This document shows, in pieces, positions 1,224-16,857 of a stretch of DNA of 36,814 nt. Every line of letters begins with the position of its first letter. Within the stretch, counting starts at the first letter, position 1. The position numbers and the translations under genes were made by a program. Location: the IMG/VR virus record IMGVR_UViG_3300042868_003804, positions 1-36,814 of that record; one strand, written 5' to 3'. Under the pieces are notes generated by a model. The model saw only the letters and a program-made list of their open reading frames with translations. It was not told where the DNA came from and searched no databases. Source of the DNA: a virus.

Positions 1224-4200
1224 TTAATCTTCTACTTCTACAGAAATAAATTCACGAGACAAAACATTCTGCCACAAGTTCACAAACTGAGGATACTTTT
1301 CAGCAAGGCGTTCACCCTCATCCCACAAAGCCTGACGCAAAATAACGGCACCACTAATCTTGGAAGCAGATGACCAGTTATCTTCTGTTACCTGCGGAAA
1401 GTTACTGACTGTATATGCCACGTTTGCATCACGGTATTTGAAGTATTCAGTAGCTGCCTTAACAGAATCGTTATCTTGGACAGAAGGTTCAGCAATAAAT
1501 TTGCGGGCTTCAATCAACTGGACACGACGGTTACGTTGAGAAGCTGTCGCTGCTGATGCCCGATCCCAGTTAGGGTAAGCCGCTTGAACCGCTTTAGTTT
1601 GTATCTTTTTCTGTTCTTTAATTTGAAGATTAGCCAAAGTACCAAACATGTCATCAGGAGAAATGCTGTCCATGACTTCCTTCATGTTTCTGTTAAACAC
1701 AAAGTTGGCAATAGCTGATTCAAGGTTGATAGCAAATTGTTTAGGGTCTTTGTATTTTACATCGCCAGCAAGTTTTTGGATATTCCAAACATCAGGGTCA
1801 AGTTCACTTGATTTAGGACTGAAATAGCCAGCAACGTTTTGGTATTTGTCAACAACAGATTTGTTTTGACGATACCAATCGTAGTATTCCTTCGTCGATG
1901 AAGAACCAACAACGCTTCTGTCTGTGATGGGCTGCATGAAAGCAACAAAGTTTTCATTGCCGAACTCTTCTACAAGCATTTCAAGTTTGTCTTGGTAGTC
2001 AAGCCCGTTCTTGTCACCCATCTTGTCGATCTGATTCCAGCGTTGAGCGATTACACCAATAAGGACGTTTCCTTTTTTGCTTTTAGCTGTCCACTGGGCA
2101 ATAGGGGCACCAGGTAGGAACAGCCCAGCCCAGCCAATAAGACCGTAAATTTTAGTTCCCAGTTCTTTACCGTCGGCTTCCCATTGCGCACGGGAATCAT
2201 AACCAGTAGGACCTTGTTGTCCAGGTGTTACAGGATCGTAGTCTTTTGTTGCTGAAGCAACTTGCAAAGCACGAATAACAGATTGTGCTGCTTTTTGTCT
2301 GTCTTCTACTTTAGAGAATAGTTCAAGACCGTTCGATCCAAGGATTCTCATTACCTGATCTGAAGCACCAGGTAAAACAAACTGTGCAATATCTGGGCTG
2401 GATAAATCTGGGATTCCGAAAGGGGCAATAAGGTCACGTATCTTGTCAAAATCTGAAGAGTCTGGAAGCATTTTGATTAACGGAAATGAAACCACTGGAC
2501 CAATACCAGGGTATGCGGTTGTAATCATAGAAAGACCACTGAGACTGTTGCCTACTCTAAAGTCAAGACCGTTCTTGCGCCATTCTTTTAGGAACCCACC
2601 GCCAACACTAACGGCGTACATTTCTTCACCTGATACTGGGTCTTTGTAAAGGAATGAATCTTTCTTTCCGTCACCGTCAATGTCTGTACCAAAGAAAGTG
2701 TTTTGGCGTAGCTCACCCATAACTTGATCTGCACGGTGAATGACTTTAGGGTTGGTCGCTAACTTTGCAGCTGAACCTGTCAACTCAACAAAGGCATCGA
2801 AGAAAGGAAAAATCTTTCTGTGTGACGCACCAAATTTTGTTTTGCGAGAAGCGTCAAAATAAGTATCTTTTGTGAAACGTGTAGCGAATAGCTCACCAAG
2901 AAGGTTTACATCTTCGACAGTCATTTCACCTTGGGCTGATGCAGCTGCTTCAATAATGTCGTCTTTTAATGATTGCAGTATGTCTGTTTTCTTTACGGTT
3001 TCTACAAGAAGGTCTGCTTGTGCTTTGTCCATTACTGGCACTAATTCAATTATACGTTGCCATTTGGCTTGGTTCCATGTTGGGACACGGGCAAGCTTGT
3101 CTGATGCTGCACCATATACACCGTCCCACGCAAAAGAAAGAAGTGCGTCATATCTGTTGCTAATTCTTGTTCGTGCATTTCTAGTGTCATTTGCACTATC
3201 AAAGACAGAAGGAAAATAATTTATACGTGCTGGAGCAAGATCACTTTCTGAATACATCTTTTTGATGTAACTTTTAAGAAGATTGTTTGGTTTGAAATCA
3301 AGATTTTTATCTCCTGTGTAGGCTGAAAAACCTCTACGACCTGATAGTTCTTCTCCGTCAAATTTGTTTTTTGCTATTGCTTCAAGGATTGAATCGTCGT
3401 CCATTGCATATAACTGGATGTCGTCGATATTTGTTTTAACAAAATTTCTTACGCCGTCAAAGTCCCAAATATAGTTAGGATCGATTCTTCCTTGGTTTTT
3501 AATGTATTCAGCAAGAACTGGTTTAAGATCTCCTGTGTGGAATCGTGTTGTGATTTCATCAATAGATTTTCCATCTATTAAATCTTGGGCTATTTTTCTT
3601 ATGTAACCGTTTGATGCCCGTTCAGCAATGCGTTGTGCAAATGCTGTAGCCCAAAGTTCTGGGTTAACTAACCGTTCAACCGATTGGACATGACCTCTAG
3701 ACACAGCCCCGCTTACAGCCGCTGGGTTTTGCATTAAATCATATGCCTTGTTTGATTGACCACGCAAAATAGCATCGTCCATGCCAGGTAGTTCATCTAC
3801 GATTCTTGCGTCAAATACAACTAGACCTTCTTCTAATGAACTAATTTTGTTTATTTGTGAAGCAATAACATCATCAACAGGAAGATTATAAAGAGTTGTT
3901 GTGCCAGCATCTTTTAAGTTTTCAAACTTACGAAGAAGACGGTTTGCTTCAGCAAGTTCGGCTTCCATTTTAGAAGCTTTACGTGCGGTTCTAATGACAC
4001 GACCCATTGCGTCAATGTTGTTTGTATCGCTAAACAACTGCATGAAGTATTGGTAGTGGTGGTCAAAAATACCTGAAAATGACAAACGGGCAAGTTCTTC
4101 TGGAAGGGTTTTAATTAGATACTTTGGTCTAATAAGAACATTAGCCTTCCAGACTCTTGACATTGACCAGTCAACAAGATCACCAGTTGCTTCAACGAGT

Positions 4201-8482: not shown

Positions 8483-10453
8483 TCATAGCCATTTTGGTCG
8501 CCACTGCCTTGGTGGAGCCTTGGCTTGTGTGAGGTTTGGCAGGTTCAAAATTGCCATCCATAATGCCATAACAATATCTGTTCCGTTCTTTTTATCTCTA
8601 GCCCATTTAGTTAACTCATCGGTTGCTGCCAGGGTTTTCCAGTTACCACTCATCGAAGGCAAACGAAGTGCGCCTGACCTGATAACTGCTGGCAGTAAAG
8701 CTTCAACACCTAGCGATTCATCCAGCTTGTTTCGGCTAGTGGTATGTGGTATCACATTGACTCGGTGCAAAGCCTGCCATTTGCGTACAAAGTCGTGAGC
8801 TAGAAGGAACCGTTGGGCTGCGTTGATCTCAACCACCCAGTGTGAGATGGGATAACCCATTTCATAGGATCGTTCTTGCATCCTGTCCATCAAACCTGAG
8901 TATTCACCAGTCATAGTGTCATAACCAAGGACTTCTTCAGCGGATAATTTGACACGCTCGATATCCACTACGTGATAAAGGTTGGTGTTTGGCTGGTAAA
9001 TAATCCAAACAAACGCCCAAAACATAGTCGGGGACGGGTCTACAGCAACAATACTGATCCACGGGTGGGCTAAACCTTCGGGAATATAACCTGGTTGGCG
9101 GTGGTTATCTATACACCCTTGGTAATCCACCCCATCTGGTCCTATGCCACCAGTAATCCAGGTGCGATGTACAAGTTTCGTGTCAAGATCCAGGTCTTCT
9201 TGCTGATATACAACTTTGAACACGTCTGGTTTGTTGTATCTAATAAAAGATAGGTCTTTCCACGGTAGACGCTTCGGGTCTAGCAGTGGACCGTCAGGAT
9301 ACGGCAGCGATTTGAAAGACCGTGACTCTTTACCTGTGTCTAGTTCTTCGTAATATGCCCTATAGATAATGTGGCGGTACTTTAATTGTTTAGCGGGTTG
9401 CCCAGCTTGAACATCTTCAGGTGTTTCAACATCCGACCCGTCATATTGGAGATCTTCTTCAATGTCGTACGTTTCTTTAGCGAGACAGTGGGCGTAGAGG
9501 TCGCCTGATCCGAGTCTCTGTCCAACAACAGCCAGTAAACCACCTGGGTCGCAACGTGCTTCTGCGACTCCATCCCACCGTTCAAGTAATTTATCCCTTG
9601 CGACTGATTCACGGGCGTTGTCTGGTGAGGCAACGTCGTCGAAGAGGCATAGGTCGGCTCGGTGTCCAATGAATTCTGCTTCAATTCCGTAGGCACGTAC
9701 AGTTGGCTCTTTGTTGTCCAACCCGTTTCCGTCAAGTTGCTCGACGACAAATTCTTCTGCCCGCCATAAGGCACCTTTGTCCACTGGTTTGAATCGTCCA
9801 TAGTCAATTGTTAAACATCCTTCTGCATCTATTGCTAACCCCTTTTGAACCATCATCGGATCGGGAAGAATTGGGGAAACCCTTTCGAGCGTTTCACGAA
9901 TACGACGGGAATACATCTTTGCCATGTTCTGTGAGACTGATCCGATCATTACACGGATGCGACGGTTGCGTACTATCGCCCACACAGCTACATCGTGGAA
10001 CAAAGTGGATTTTCCTGCACCTGGTGGGACGTTAAGAACTACAAATTCTTTTTCTTCGGACTCCAACAGGTTCACTAAGGTGATAGCTGCTTCTACTTGC
10101 CACGGTGAAGGGACACGCCCTAGATATCTGCGCCTGAAGTAATCAAAATCTTCTAACCCTCGAAGGGCTTCCTCACACAACATATCGTGCGGGATGGCAG
10201 ATGGCAAGTCAATGGTGTCCATGAAATCCATGTGCGCACGTTCTTGGCGACCACCGTTACCTGCACCAGTGTTAGCTCGATGGTTTGCTTCTTTACGGTT
10301 CGCTTCTAGCTCTTTGGCTCGTTTCAACCAGCGGGAACCCGTATTTACGTGTACCCCTGTCTCGGCACAGGCATCTTTAATGTTTCGTCCTGAAGCTATT
10401 AAAGCGAAGAACTTGGCTTTGTCCTGAATTGGGACAGCTCTTTTTGTTCCCAT
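8483..10453 (-). CDS. terL: Terminase large subunit with N-terminal HTH
   Basis: This is the DNA-packaging motor: the ATPase drives translocation and the nuclease cuts the concatemer. Residues about 10-45 form a helix-turn-helix of the kind seen in small terminases (SGRNIKDACAETGVHVNTGS). A Walker A motif PPGAGKST lies at 143-150 and Walker B LCLFDD at 268-273. An RNase H-like nuclease start, AVDPSPT, is at about 470-476 with a likely metal-binding Asp472. Length (656 aa) fits a TerL carrying an extra DNA-binding domain. No separate small terminase was recognised nearby, so the N-terminal HTH may replace it. The gene follows three small basic-protein genes and precedes the portal. Confidence 0.93.
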   Translation of the reverse strand: MGTKRAVPIQDKAKFFALIASGRNIKDACAETGVHVNTGSRWLKRAKELEANRKEANHRANTGAGNGGRQERAHMDFMDTIDLPSAIPHDMLCEEALRGLEDFDYFRRRYLGRVPSPWQVEAAITLVNLLESEEKEFVVLNVPPGAGKSTLFHDVAVWAIVRNRRIRVMIGSVSQNMAKMYSRRIRETLERVSPILPDPMMVQKGLAIDAEGCLTIDYGRFKPVDKGALWRAEEFVVEQLDGNGLDNKEPTVRAYGIEAEFIGHRADLCLFDDVASPDNARESVARDKLLERWDGVAEARCDPGGLLAVVGQRLGSGDLYAHCLAKETYDIEEDLQYDGSDVETPEDVQAGQPAKQLKYRHIIYRAYYEELDTGKESRSFKSLPYPDGPLLDPKRLPWKDLSFIRYNKPDVFKVVYQQEDLDLDTKLVHRTWITGGIGPDGVDYQGCIDNHRQPGYIPEGLAHPWISIVAVDPSPTMFWAFVWIIYQPNTNLYHVVDIERVKLSAEEVLGYDTMTGEYSGLMDRMQERSYEMGYPISHWVVEINAAQRFLLAHDFVRKWQALHRVNVIPHTTSRNKLDESLGVEALLPAVIRSGALRLPSMSGNWKTLAATDELTKWARDKKNGTDIVMALWMAILNLPNLTQAKAPPRQWRPKWL

Positions 10454-10843: not shown

Positions 10844-11008
10844 TTACTTTCCTTTTTTCGTTCGGGATGCAGCCATGTTATCAACAAGATTCGGGTACGG
10901 ACGACCAGCCTTTTTCGCCCTTGCTTTTGCTGAAGCTTTCTGTGCCGAAGACAAAGGAGTCGACTTCTTCTTCGGGTTTTCTTTTTCCCAAACAGGTTTT
11001 TGTTTCAT
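10844..11008 (-). CDS. Small basic protein, 54 aa (PYPNLVDN motif)
   Basis: A basic Lys/Ala/Ser-rich protein starting MKQKPVWEKENPKKKS and containing AGRPYPNLVDNMAA near the C-terminus. That motif recurs in small phage proteins beside terminase genes. The frame stays open upstream to an ATG at 11155, but that extension (Cys/Pro/Trp-rich) looks unlike the conserved core, so I prefer the ATG at 11008. The start is uncertain because no strong ribosome site precedes it. It is the first gene of the packaging operon that I can support. Confidence 0.6.
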   Translation of the reverse strand: MKQKPVWEKENPKKKSTPLSSAQKASAKARAKKAGRPYPNLVDNMAASRTKKGK

Positions 11009-11747
11009 GTTGGAAACACTAACACCATCTGCTACTATAAAACCAACTTCACAAGACCTCCACGCTGGGATAGCGTCAAGGCAGGCAAGGCTGTACATCG
11101 GTTGCATGATGCGGGGCAATTCACACCAGGGAACTGGGGTAGATGAATCCTGCAATCAGACAATACCGTTATGTAATTATTGATCCTATTGTGTAAGAGA
11201 TTCAAGCAGCGTAATGAACGTCATCTCATTAAAACTTTCGGGTGTCGGCTAAACATGGCTACGGCGACCTTGGTATCACTTTGGTATCTAAACTGTGGGG
11301 GAGCTAAACCCAGACTGTCACGATCTGGTTCCGCTAAAGCGGCTACCGCCCTCGCTTCGCATCGGTTGCTTGCAAAGAAGTGACGTCACGATGTCACGAT
11401 GCGGGTTCAAGTCGGTTGTTTTCTTTTTTTCTTTCTCTGCCAACATATTTAGAACAACCTCCAAGCTGGTGTACTTCTCCCCCGCCCGAAACGTACAACA
11501 CTCAGGACAACCACAATCAGTAGTCAACCACCACACACAGTGAACACCCCCCACCAACCAAACCCTCCACACAACAAAAGAGTGAGAACGTAGCTTTCCA
11601 GGTACATATATATACCCCCCTATGAGCCTCGGCAGACCCCCAGTTGAGGTTTAGCCTACCGTCTGGTAGGTAGGGAGCCTTTCCTACTGTCCCCCGCTTT
11701 TTTTCGTGAGCTGATATCGGCAACGCCTAGCCCCTCCCCCTTGTGGA

Positions 11748-11763
11748 TGTTTCACGTGAAACA
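11748..11763. promoter_or_regulatory. Perfect chromosomal-type parS site
   Basis: TGTTTCACGTGAAACA is a complete 16-bp palindrome identical to the consensus bacterial chromosomal parS (the Bacillus/actinobacterial ParB-binding centromere). No ParA or ParB gene is visible in the window, so a ParB from the host or a co-resident element would have to act on it. It lies about 80 bp from the first iteron. Confidence 0.85.
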
Positions 11764-11842
11764 TAGTTGCTCTTGTTCTTTGGTGGTGCTTGCTTTTGTT
11801 AGCGGGTTGCTGTCTGTTGTTTGCAAAGGGATCTTTTTGGGG

Positions 11843-11974
11843 AGTCGGTGACTGTTGGGGGAATAGTCTGTGTCTGTTCGTGAAGAGTCGGTGACTGTTG
11901 GTGTGGTGGTCGGTGGTTACTTGGGGAGAGTCTTGGACTGTTGGTGTTTTTGGGGTTTAGTCGGTGACTGTTGG
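11843..11974. repeat. Six iteron-like direct repeats, AGTC-N3-GACT-TGTTGG type
   Basis: Exact copies of AGTCGGTGACTGTTGG start at 11843, 11886 and 11959. Variants start at 11865, 11908 and 11929. Start-to-start distances are 22, 21, 22, 21 and 30 bp, so the first five fall on one helical face. The 11929 copy changes the central three bases (GGT to TTG) yet keeps AGTC and GACT as an inverted pair, which suggests a dyad protein-binding site. An AT-rich run follows the last copy. A replication origin or a cooperative operator is likely. Confidence 0.75.
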
Positions 11975-12045
11975 AAAGTTTTTTTGGATTATTTTGTGAG
12001 CCTTATTCCGTAAGGGTTTCACGGGGTGTTTTTGTTTCTTGAATG

Positions 12046-12074
12046 TTGTAACTAGCTTCTAAGTGTTGTACGTT
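12046..12074 (+). promoter_or_regulatory. Early promoter P1 (TTGTAA-17-TACGTT)
   Basis: A -35-like TTGTAA at 12046-12051 is separated by 17 bp from TACGTT at 12069-12074, which fits the actinobacterial TANNNT -10. ATATCGAG begins exactly 10 bp after the start of the -10 box, as in the second promoter at 14223-14251. It would drive the early operon starting at 12123. Confidence 0.55.
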
Positions 12075-12122
12075 TTCTATATCGAGTTACAAGGACTTGA
12101 TAGAGCTTGAAGGGGCTACAAC

Positions 12123-12350
12123 ATGGCAATGAGCAAGAAAGACTACGAACTAATAGCGGGGGTGTTCTCTGAACACGTCAAGAGCTATCGGGAGCAAGGT
12201 CACACCAAAGAGATATCGGACAAGATAAACGCTATCGGCACGGTAGTTTCGGCATTAGCACGAGAACTAGAAATAGAGAACCCACGTTTCACCCATGACC
12301 GTTTCGTCACGGCTTGCGGGTTCACTCGCCTATCTTGGGTAGGTCGGTAA
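12123..12350 (+). CDS. Small conserved phage protein (KDYELIA / ENPRF type), 75 aa
   Basis: The first gene of the rightward early operon, preceded by a GAAGGGGC ribosome site and promoter P1. The sequence MSKKDYELIAGVFSEH followed by IENPRFTHDRFVTACG matches a widespread small-protein pattern of actinobacteriophages. The N-terminal segment is helical and the C-terminal NPRF-x3-RF-x2-ACG segment is conserved. No function is established to my knowledge. An internal ATG two codons on (MSKKDY) is an alternative start. Confidence 0.85.
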   Translation: MAMSKKDYELIAGVFSEHVKSYREQGHTKEISDKINAIGTVVSALARELEIENPRFTHDRFVTACGFTRLSWVGR

Positions 12351-12571: not shown

Positions 12572-12733
12572 ATGCAGAGCTATACGGTTCAGGTAGTAGT
12601 CGGCAACGTCTACGAGATAACAGTCAAGGCAGACACGCCAGAAAAGGCACAGGAGCTCGCTTTAGAGTTCGCCTACGACGGGGAGCTAATCGAAGCGGGG
12701 CGGGCAGTCTTAGAGATAGCTGAAAACAACTAG
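12572..12733 (+). CDS. DpnD/PcfM-like small protein, 53 aa
   Basis: A 53-codon frame starting MQSYTVQVVVGNVYEITVKA. It shows strand-strand-helix-strand character with TPEKAQELALEFAYDGELI in the middle. This resembles the small DpnD/PcfM-type domain (Y-x-V strands, then an Ala/Glu helix, then a short strand). The start is two bases after the previous stop. The family match is by eye only, and the domain has no assigned biochemical activity. Confidence 0.7.
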   Translation: MQSYTVQVVVGNVYEITVKADTPEKAQELALEFAYDGELIEAGRAVLEIAENN

Positions 12734-12739
12734 CCGAAA

Positions 12740-12775
12740 GCCCGCAAGGGCTCTGGCGGGGATAGTCTCCCGCCA
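12740..12775 (+). other. Tandem RNA hairpins just upstream of a start codon
   Basis: GCCC-GCAA-GGGC (12740-12751) is a short hairpin with a GNRA tetraloop. Directly after it, TGGCGGG (12754-12760) pairs perfectly with CCCGCCA (12769-12775). The second stem ends six bases before the ATG at 12782 and would occupy the ribosome site. There is no T-run, so a terminator is unlikely. Confidence 0.6.
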
Positions 12776-12781
12776 CTGACG

Positions 12782-13186
12782 ATGGCAGACAAAAAAATAC
12801 CGAAGGGGTACGACAAAATGATAACCAAAAAAGGGATCGAAATATCCAAAGTGCTTAGCACGGCGGGTCTTGAATGGCAGTGGGGAGACAGGGACGAAGT
12901 GCTAGACACGCTCTCGCTTATCTGTCGCCACACGAAGACATACACCCGCCTCCATGAGATTTTTGCGGGGGACGATACGCACTCTGGCGAGTGGGTCAAT
13001 GCCAACTACAAGTGGCTAGAGAAGCGGGACGAACAGCTCACCGCACGTCTAGAGGCTCTGGGTCGCCAGTTAGCTATCTGGTGCAGTGCTGGCAGTCCAG
13101 TCCTAGAGCTAAAGAGTCTCTACGGCGTGACCGTAACTGTCACTGATGCCAACGGCATACCACGTACACGGGACATGGGGGAATGA
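12782..13186 (+). CDS. Hypothetical early protein, 134 aa
   Basis: The largest product of the first part of the early operon. It is soluble and charged, with a helical middle (about residues 35-105) and a beta-rich C-terminus ending TVTDANGIPRTRDMGE. The start follows two hairpins and lacks a clear Shine-Dalgarno. An internal ATG at 12818 is an alternative. Its TGA overlaps the next ATG (TGATG). I recognise no family. Confidence 0.7.
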   Translation: MADKKIPKGYDKMITKKGIEISKVLSTAGLEWQWGDRDEVLDTLSLICRHTKTYTRLHEIFAGDDTHSGEWVNANYKWLEKRDEQLTARLEALGRQLAIWCSAGSPVLELKSLYGVTVTVTDANGIPRTRDMGE

Positions 13187-16563: not shown

Positions 16564-16603
16564 GCCCTAGTCGTCGGTTCCCCTTCCTGACGGCTAGGGC
16601 TTT
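16564..16603 (+). terminator. Intrinsic terminator between convergent operons
   Basis: GCCCTAGTCGTC (16564-16575) pairs with GACGGCTAGGGC (16589-16600), one G-T wobble, followed by TTT. It ends the rightward early operon. The minus-strand whiB stop codon (16594-16596) lies inside the stem. On the minus strand no T-run follows, so termination of leftward RNA is less certain. Confidence 0.7.
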
Positions 16604-16857
16604 ACCCGTTGCTGGTAGTAGACATGTTGGTCACGTTCTTTGGGTGTCATGCCCGCCCAGAACCCGTTACGACGTCCCGTTGCCTCTTCGAATGGGAGTA
16701 CAAAGTTGAGGCAGTCGTCAATGACAGGGCAGACAGCACAAAAGCTTCGTGCTTCTTTCCATACACGTCCCGTCCCGTAATCTAAAGAGGCATCAGGAAA
16801 AAATATCTCTGACGATACGCCTTTGCAGTGTGCTTTCTCGTGCCACGCATCTCTCAT
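16594..16857 (-). CDS. whiB: WhiB-like (Wbl) iron-sulfur transcription regulator, 87 aa
   Basis: Wbl proteins bind a [4Fe-4S] cluster and associate with the principal sigma factor to alter promoter choice. The four ligands are visible at Cys11, Cys40, Cys43 and Cys49 (C-x2-C-x5-C), followed by the signature turn GFWAGMT at 65-71. Length fits the short phage Wbl class, such as that of mycobacteriophage TM4, which inhibits host WhiB2 function. The family is typical of Actinobacteria and their phages, so it also points to the host. The C-terminal basic tail is short (QQRVKP). It is the last gene of the leftward regulation/recombination operon. Confidence 0.93.
   Translation of the reverse strand: MRDAWHEKAHCKGVSSEIFFPDASLDYGTGRVWKEARSFCAVCPVIDDCLNFVLPFEEATGRRNGFWAGMTPKERDQHVYYQQRVKP

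Follow-up and report, generated by a model that had tools for sequence, protein, structure and literature searches.

Chromosomal-type parS sites recur in phages and suggest recruitment of the host chromosome-segregation machinery to phage DNA

The ParB-parS-SMC system organises the chromosomes of most bacteria, and the question raised by the locus described here is what a parS site of the chromosomal type does on the DNA of a virus in which no ParB is recognised. The window, i.e. the whole stretch of 36,814 nucleotides that was analysed, is a linear IMG/VR virus record that is cut inside a putative capsid gene, so that a small unseen part of the genome may remain. The genes recognised in it are those of a terminase, a portal protein, SSB, a RecE-like exonuclease, an annealing protein and a WhiB-like regulator, the last of which is a marker that points to a virus of (aquatic) actinobacteria; no integrase, repressor, replication initiator or polymerase was recognised among the window proteins scanned. 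Known phages include no relatives at the DNA level and, by the terminase large subunit (TerL), only relatives of less than 60% identity, and a search of species genomes for a TerL relative, by which the host might be identified, gave none.

A preliminary description of this DNA had pointed to an exact 16-bp parS consensus with both arms intact, and a search of the window bears this out: TGTTTCACGTGAAACA is an exact and perfectly palindromic match (table 1), and the only match across the window when up to three mismatches are allowed. An A at 11747 and a T at 11764 extend it to the 18-bp perfect palindrome ATGTTTCACGTGAAACAT, and the same A..T flanking pair is the commonest one at the other exact phage parS sites (49/147). 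By simple arithmetic, one given exact 16-mer is expected about 1e-5 times in 36.8 kb, in keeping with the earlier statement that a chance occurrence would be very small. The palindrome is identical to that of the chromosomal ParABS systems of Bacillus subtilis, Corynebacterium glutamicum and Pseudomonas and fits the actinobacterial consensus, which for C. glutamicum is given as TGTTNCACGTGAAACA and for Mycobacterium smegmatis as GTTTCACGTGAAAC (PMC7022226), a consensus taken from other Actinobacteria and assumed for the window's own host. The related Noc family binds a similar palindrome, but the sequence of the window site differs from the Noc motif TATTTCCCGGGAAATA.

The site lies in a 967-bp stretch between a candidate open reading frame (ORF) at 10844-11155 (minus strand) and an ORF at 12123-12350 (plus strand), which separates the leftward candidate ORF and terminase block from a rightward block of small genes. 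The iterons that had been described near parS are indeed present, as five AGTCGGTGACTGTTGG-like repeats; the array is found in some relatives, parS-bearing and parS-less alike, and possibly serves as an origin or is bound by a phage regulator. The conserved block that adjoins parS possibly has a packaging or regulatory role. Furthermore, an inverted repeat (11489-11505/12059-12075) with 17-nt arms, 94% complementary and 553 nt apart, encloses both parS and the iterons. Elsewhere in the window, a type II hammerhead ribozyme is called at 12732-12794 (plus strand; 48.9 bits, gathering score 37) within the gap that precedes the ORF at 12782, and is also found in one relative (L146, 2726-2788, minus strand), while a tRNA-Arg call at 2470-2568 (minus strand), within a 1553-aa ORF, is probably spurious.

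Table 1. Features of the window (positions in the 36,814-nucleotide stretch).
Feature	Position	Strand	Remarks
TerL	8483..10453	-	phrog_38, E 1.5e-61; query for relatives
Non-coding region	11156..12122		contains parS and repeats; parS is covered by no ORF of at least 60 aa
Conserved non-coding block	11520..11646		adjoins parS; kept in many parS-less relatives
parS	11748..11763		TGTTTCACGTGAAACA, perfect 16-bp palindrome; 18 bp at 11747-11764
Iteron-like array	11843..11974	+	five copies of the 16-bp unit AGTCGGTGACTGTTGG, AGTC-N3-GACT core
WhiB-like regulator	16594..16857	-	PF02467, E 8e-15

The absence of a visible ParB gene, claimed at the outset, was upheld by profile searches, since the window yielded neither a TIGR00180 match over the cut-off nor any PF02195 match, and a phage ParB was rejected for the window; no ParA was recognised among the window ORFs that were annotated. 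Beyond the window, none of 124 virus records scanned (99 from IMG/VR, either parS-bearing or relatives, and another 25 phages or relatives) encodes a ParB over the curated TIGR00180 cut-off, eight of them giving weak, partial matches below it, and PF02195 recovered one phage ParB-like protein, in Microbacterium phage KaiHaiDragon.

That the recurrence of parS in phages is non-random emerges from a survey of public records. The exact site, sought with a padded 18-mer query, is present in 315 of 50,697 phage records, in which three control palindromes gave 0, 0 and 0 matches; in IMG/VR, at least 120 stretches carry parS as against 2 for a control palindrome. The figure of 315 is to be read with the proviso that the records of one genus do not count as independent and that about one-quarter of the list is Listeria, including some unverified contigs. 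Many of the 315 are nevertheless isolated phages, and sites occur in complete genomes. The carriers comprise tailed phages (Gordonia Woes, Ruegeria DSS3P8, Lactobacillus Lpa804, Bacillus vB_BcoS-136, Glutamicibacter Voltaire, Enterococcus CUB-FM, Arthrobacter Huntingdon and Listeria P100plus) as well as single-stranded DNA phages, among them the microvirus Spiroplasma phage 4 and Bajarodino virus 3 (PQ006097.1), a 6.2-kb record classed as an inovirus. The latter holds six exact sites, which is the maximum; most parS records hold one to three.

Sites also show a strong tendency to lie between genes. Outside ORFs of at least 100 aa were found 80 of 146 exact IMG/VR sites, as compared with a background of 15.8% of bases (p ~4e-27, a value that is indicative only, given crude ORFs and related contigs); a separate binomial figure, for which 33 lineages were counted by hand and a background of 10% was assumed, is not relied on. 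Annotated phages mostly agree with this placement, and in Clavibacter CMP1 and Rhodococcus Finch the site overlaps a gene by one base and is effectively intergenic; several lineages carry it within genes, parS being coding in Quhwahvirus, Gillianvirus and Tank.

A more local comparison is offered by the TerL relatives of the virus, about 85 contigs, many of them truncated. One relative (L233) has an exact parS at -1845 from terL, and nine one-mismatch copies, all upstream of terL, were counted among the first 80 relatives: TGTTTCCCGTGAAACA in L142, L143 and L145, its reverse complement TGTTTCACGGGAAACA in L154 and L190, TGTTTCACGTGAAACG in L188 and TGTTTCATGTGAAACA in L197-L199. Contigs within a group are near-duplicates, and the independent parS lineages among the relatives number about four or five. 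None of 300 random palindromes of the same half-site composition reached nine such matches in the same 623 kb, and the reversed pattern gave no match in 50 records; a degenerate site with two mismatches (G027), apparently within coding sequence, was excluded from the count. The distance from terL varies from -969 to -3657 (about -1300 in the window), the site lying near small genes or repeats at no fixed distance, which is what a loading site that acts from afar would lead one to expect. Perfect CRP-like TGTGA-N6-TCACA boxes, of which the window has none, occur in L142, L143, L188 and L198, some adjoining the near-parS sequence.

The closest relatives (95-96% identity in TerL) are without parS, as are most others. 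Eight contigs (L123, L124 and L126-L131) conserve the sequence from 10454 to about 11380-11680, and their similarity ends before the parS block; since it is in the closest relatives that similarity is lost there, parS is not universal in this group. The preliminary description had taken absence of the site from relatives with a conserved intergenic region as evidence against its claim, and the relatives divide on this point, the nearest lacking the site and others bearing the exact copy of L233 or the nine one-mismatch forms. Because such copies exist, the site has been gained and lost and is not spurious.

Whether the sequence of the site follows the host can be asked of its variants. The chromosomal consensus of Pseudomonas aeruginosa and P. 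putida, TGTTCCACGTGGAACA (PMC7022226; PMC4368675), is present in 58 phage records, with Pseudomonas as the largest group (17); for the TTTCAC form, Pseudomonas is outside the ten commonest phage names. In Pseudomonas phages the TGTTCCACGTGGAACA site is mostly intergenic, as it is in KPP25, ventosus, Lana and Amme-3; it is inside genes in Klebsiella jumbo phages. In Psychrobacillus phage Perkons (MT325768.1), the Pseudomonas-type variant is found about 15 bp upstream of an ArdA antirestriction gene. For Streptococcus pneumoniae, whose parS is AGTTTCACGTGAAACT (PMC7022226), the prediction failed, no Streptococcus phage being among the phage records with this sequence; it differs from TGTTTCACGTGAAACA in the outermost bases only, and this change leaves four records, all with the site in Sulfolobus virus integrases. 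The phage variant may follow the host, with one variant matched (Pseudomonas) and one failed (Streptococcus).

Taken as sequence evidence, these observations suggest that phages recruit the host chromosome-segregation machinery to their own DNA. The borrowing of host ParB, already put forward in the preliminary description, is the best reading of the data because host-type parS recurs without a recognisable phage ParB; the plasmid-like prophage in which that description had partly cast it is less likely. In particular, with a probability of roughly 0.6, parS would serve in infected cells to load the host's ParB, perhaps together with SMC, onto the DNA of the phage. The palindrome would be a functional parS, taken from the host chromosome centromere site or evolved to match it. 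On chromosomes, ParB loads at parS as a CTP clamp and slides away from it, and SMC is recruited there (PMC12704722; PMC10197239); it is because these events are established at chromosomal parS that loading on phage DNA is envisaged. Host ParB would bind the phage site during infection, close as a CTP-dependent clamp and slide along the surrounding phage DNA, by which the phage genome would gain host organising machinery, namely ParB, probably SMC and possibly ParA. The most likely benefit would be that phage DNA inside the cell is positioned, condensed or disentangled during lytic growth. A lytic-cycle role is preferred to partition since parS is rare on plasmids and is present in phages of clusters without temperate functions: integrase, parABS and repressor are reportedly missing from clusters CR and CS of Gordonia phages, and Woes belongs to CS3 (PMC5559632). 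A plasmid collection of 7.3 Gb has 18 records with parS, several being megabase replicons, although that search, on a larger database, admits only 17-18-mers and is not exactly comparable with the phage search. A broader proposal, somewhat short of even odds, is that unrelated tailed and single-stranded phages have independently acquired the host centromere site and have host ParB and SMC loaded in lytic infection, as a general and so far unrecognised hijack.

The same distribution can be read differently, in the first place as that of a decoy, in which replicated parS copies titrate host ParB and stop chromosome segregation or SMC loading to the advantage of the phage. Phages expected to be lytic carry the site, plasmids, which would damage their own host, rarely do so, and several sites are present in some records (up to the six of the inovirus); but most records have only one to three, and many hosts can do without ParB (PMC7022226), so that the gain from titration is doubtful and a decoy is, on balance, unlikely. 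Rather improbable is also the partition of an episomal or carrier-state phage genome by host ParABS, even if a single parS stabilises a plasmid that is otherwise unstable in B. subtilis when Soj and Spo0J come from the host (according to the passage of PMC2346475 that cites this work), Gordonia cluster A phages partition by their own parABS (PMC5559632) and six copies in an inovirus record would suit an episomal replicative form. As noted above, integrase, repressor and initiator were not recognised among the proteins scanned, species genomes yielded no TerL relative, and it is phages of clusters without temperate functions, and only rarely plasmids, that carry parS; the plasmid-like prophage is disfavoured on these grounds.

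An operator, at which ParB or another host regulator controls a neighbouring phage promoter, would explain why parS often precedes a start codon by 20-60 bp and why CRP-like boxes stand near the site in the four relatives named, and it has a parallel in M. bovis BCG, where parS overlaps the -10 element of the gidB promoter (PMC2346475). However, the neighbouring gene and the distance to it are not fixed across lineages and no promoter is predicted at the window parS, which makes it quite doubtful; it is because of this variable position that a loading site is preferred to an operator. Finally, chance or host DNA within virus records is strongly disfavoured as a general cause, since control palindromes were absent from the phage records and rare in IMG/VR, the 300 random palindromes fell short of the relatives' count, no ParB above the cut-off turned up in any parS record scanned, and parS is present in complete genomes of isolated phages, from which the Noc-site control sets apart the suspect, unverified Listeria contigs that carry both parS and Noc sites and are the only phage records with the latter. 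Some of the 315 records are, however, probably host contamination of this kind, as sister contigs of one unverified entry ('Listeria phage LM 4-11-1', OR846756.1, with five parS sites) carry Noc sites.

Loading of host ParB at a borrowed parS would differ in several respects from known systems. Unlike chromosomal parS, the site is here on phage DNA, sporadic, in one or a few copies and without a recognisable parB. The actinobacteriophage parABS of the RedRock type also gives a phage a centromere function, but RedRock itself encodes both ParA and ParB and relies on an 8-bp repeat in eight copies (PMC7157519), whereas the window, in which no phage ParB was found, uses the host chromosomal motif. 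A further parallel is the parS plasmid stabilised by host Soj/Spo0J, likewise a foreign replicon served by host ParABS; as cited in PMC2346475, that was a test plasmid, while the carriers here are natural phages, some from clusters without temperate functions. Published work describes parABS of phages that encode the ParB themselves (PMC7157519) and surveys phage proteins of the ParB fold (PMC12704722); in the literature searched, which excluded preprints and most subscription journals, no description of ParB-less phages with a host-type parS was found.

Should a loading site indeed be present in phages across several phyla, their DNA would be a natural target of ParB-parS-SMC, which, if true, may explain the positioning or organisation of some viral genomes in the cell. 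Culturable phage-host pairs allow a direct test of the proposed recruitment and, since the variant may follow the host, the parS variant could serve as a sequence cue for host prediction.
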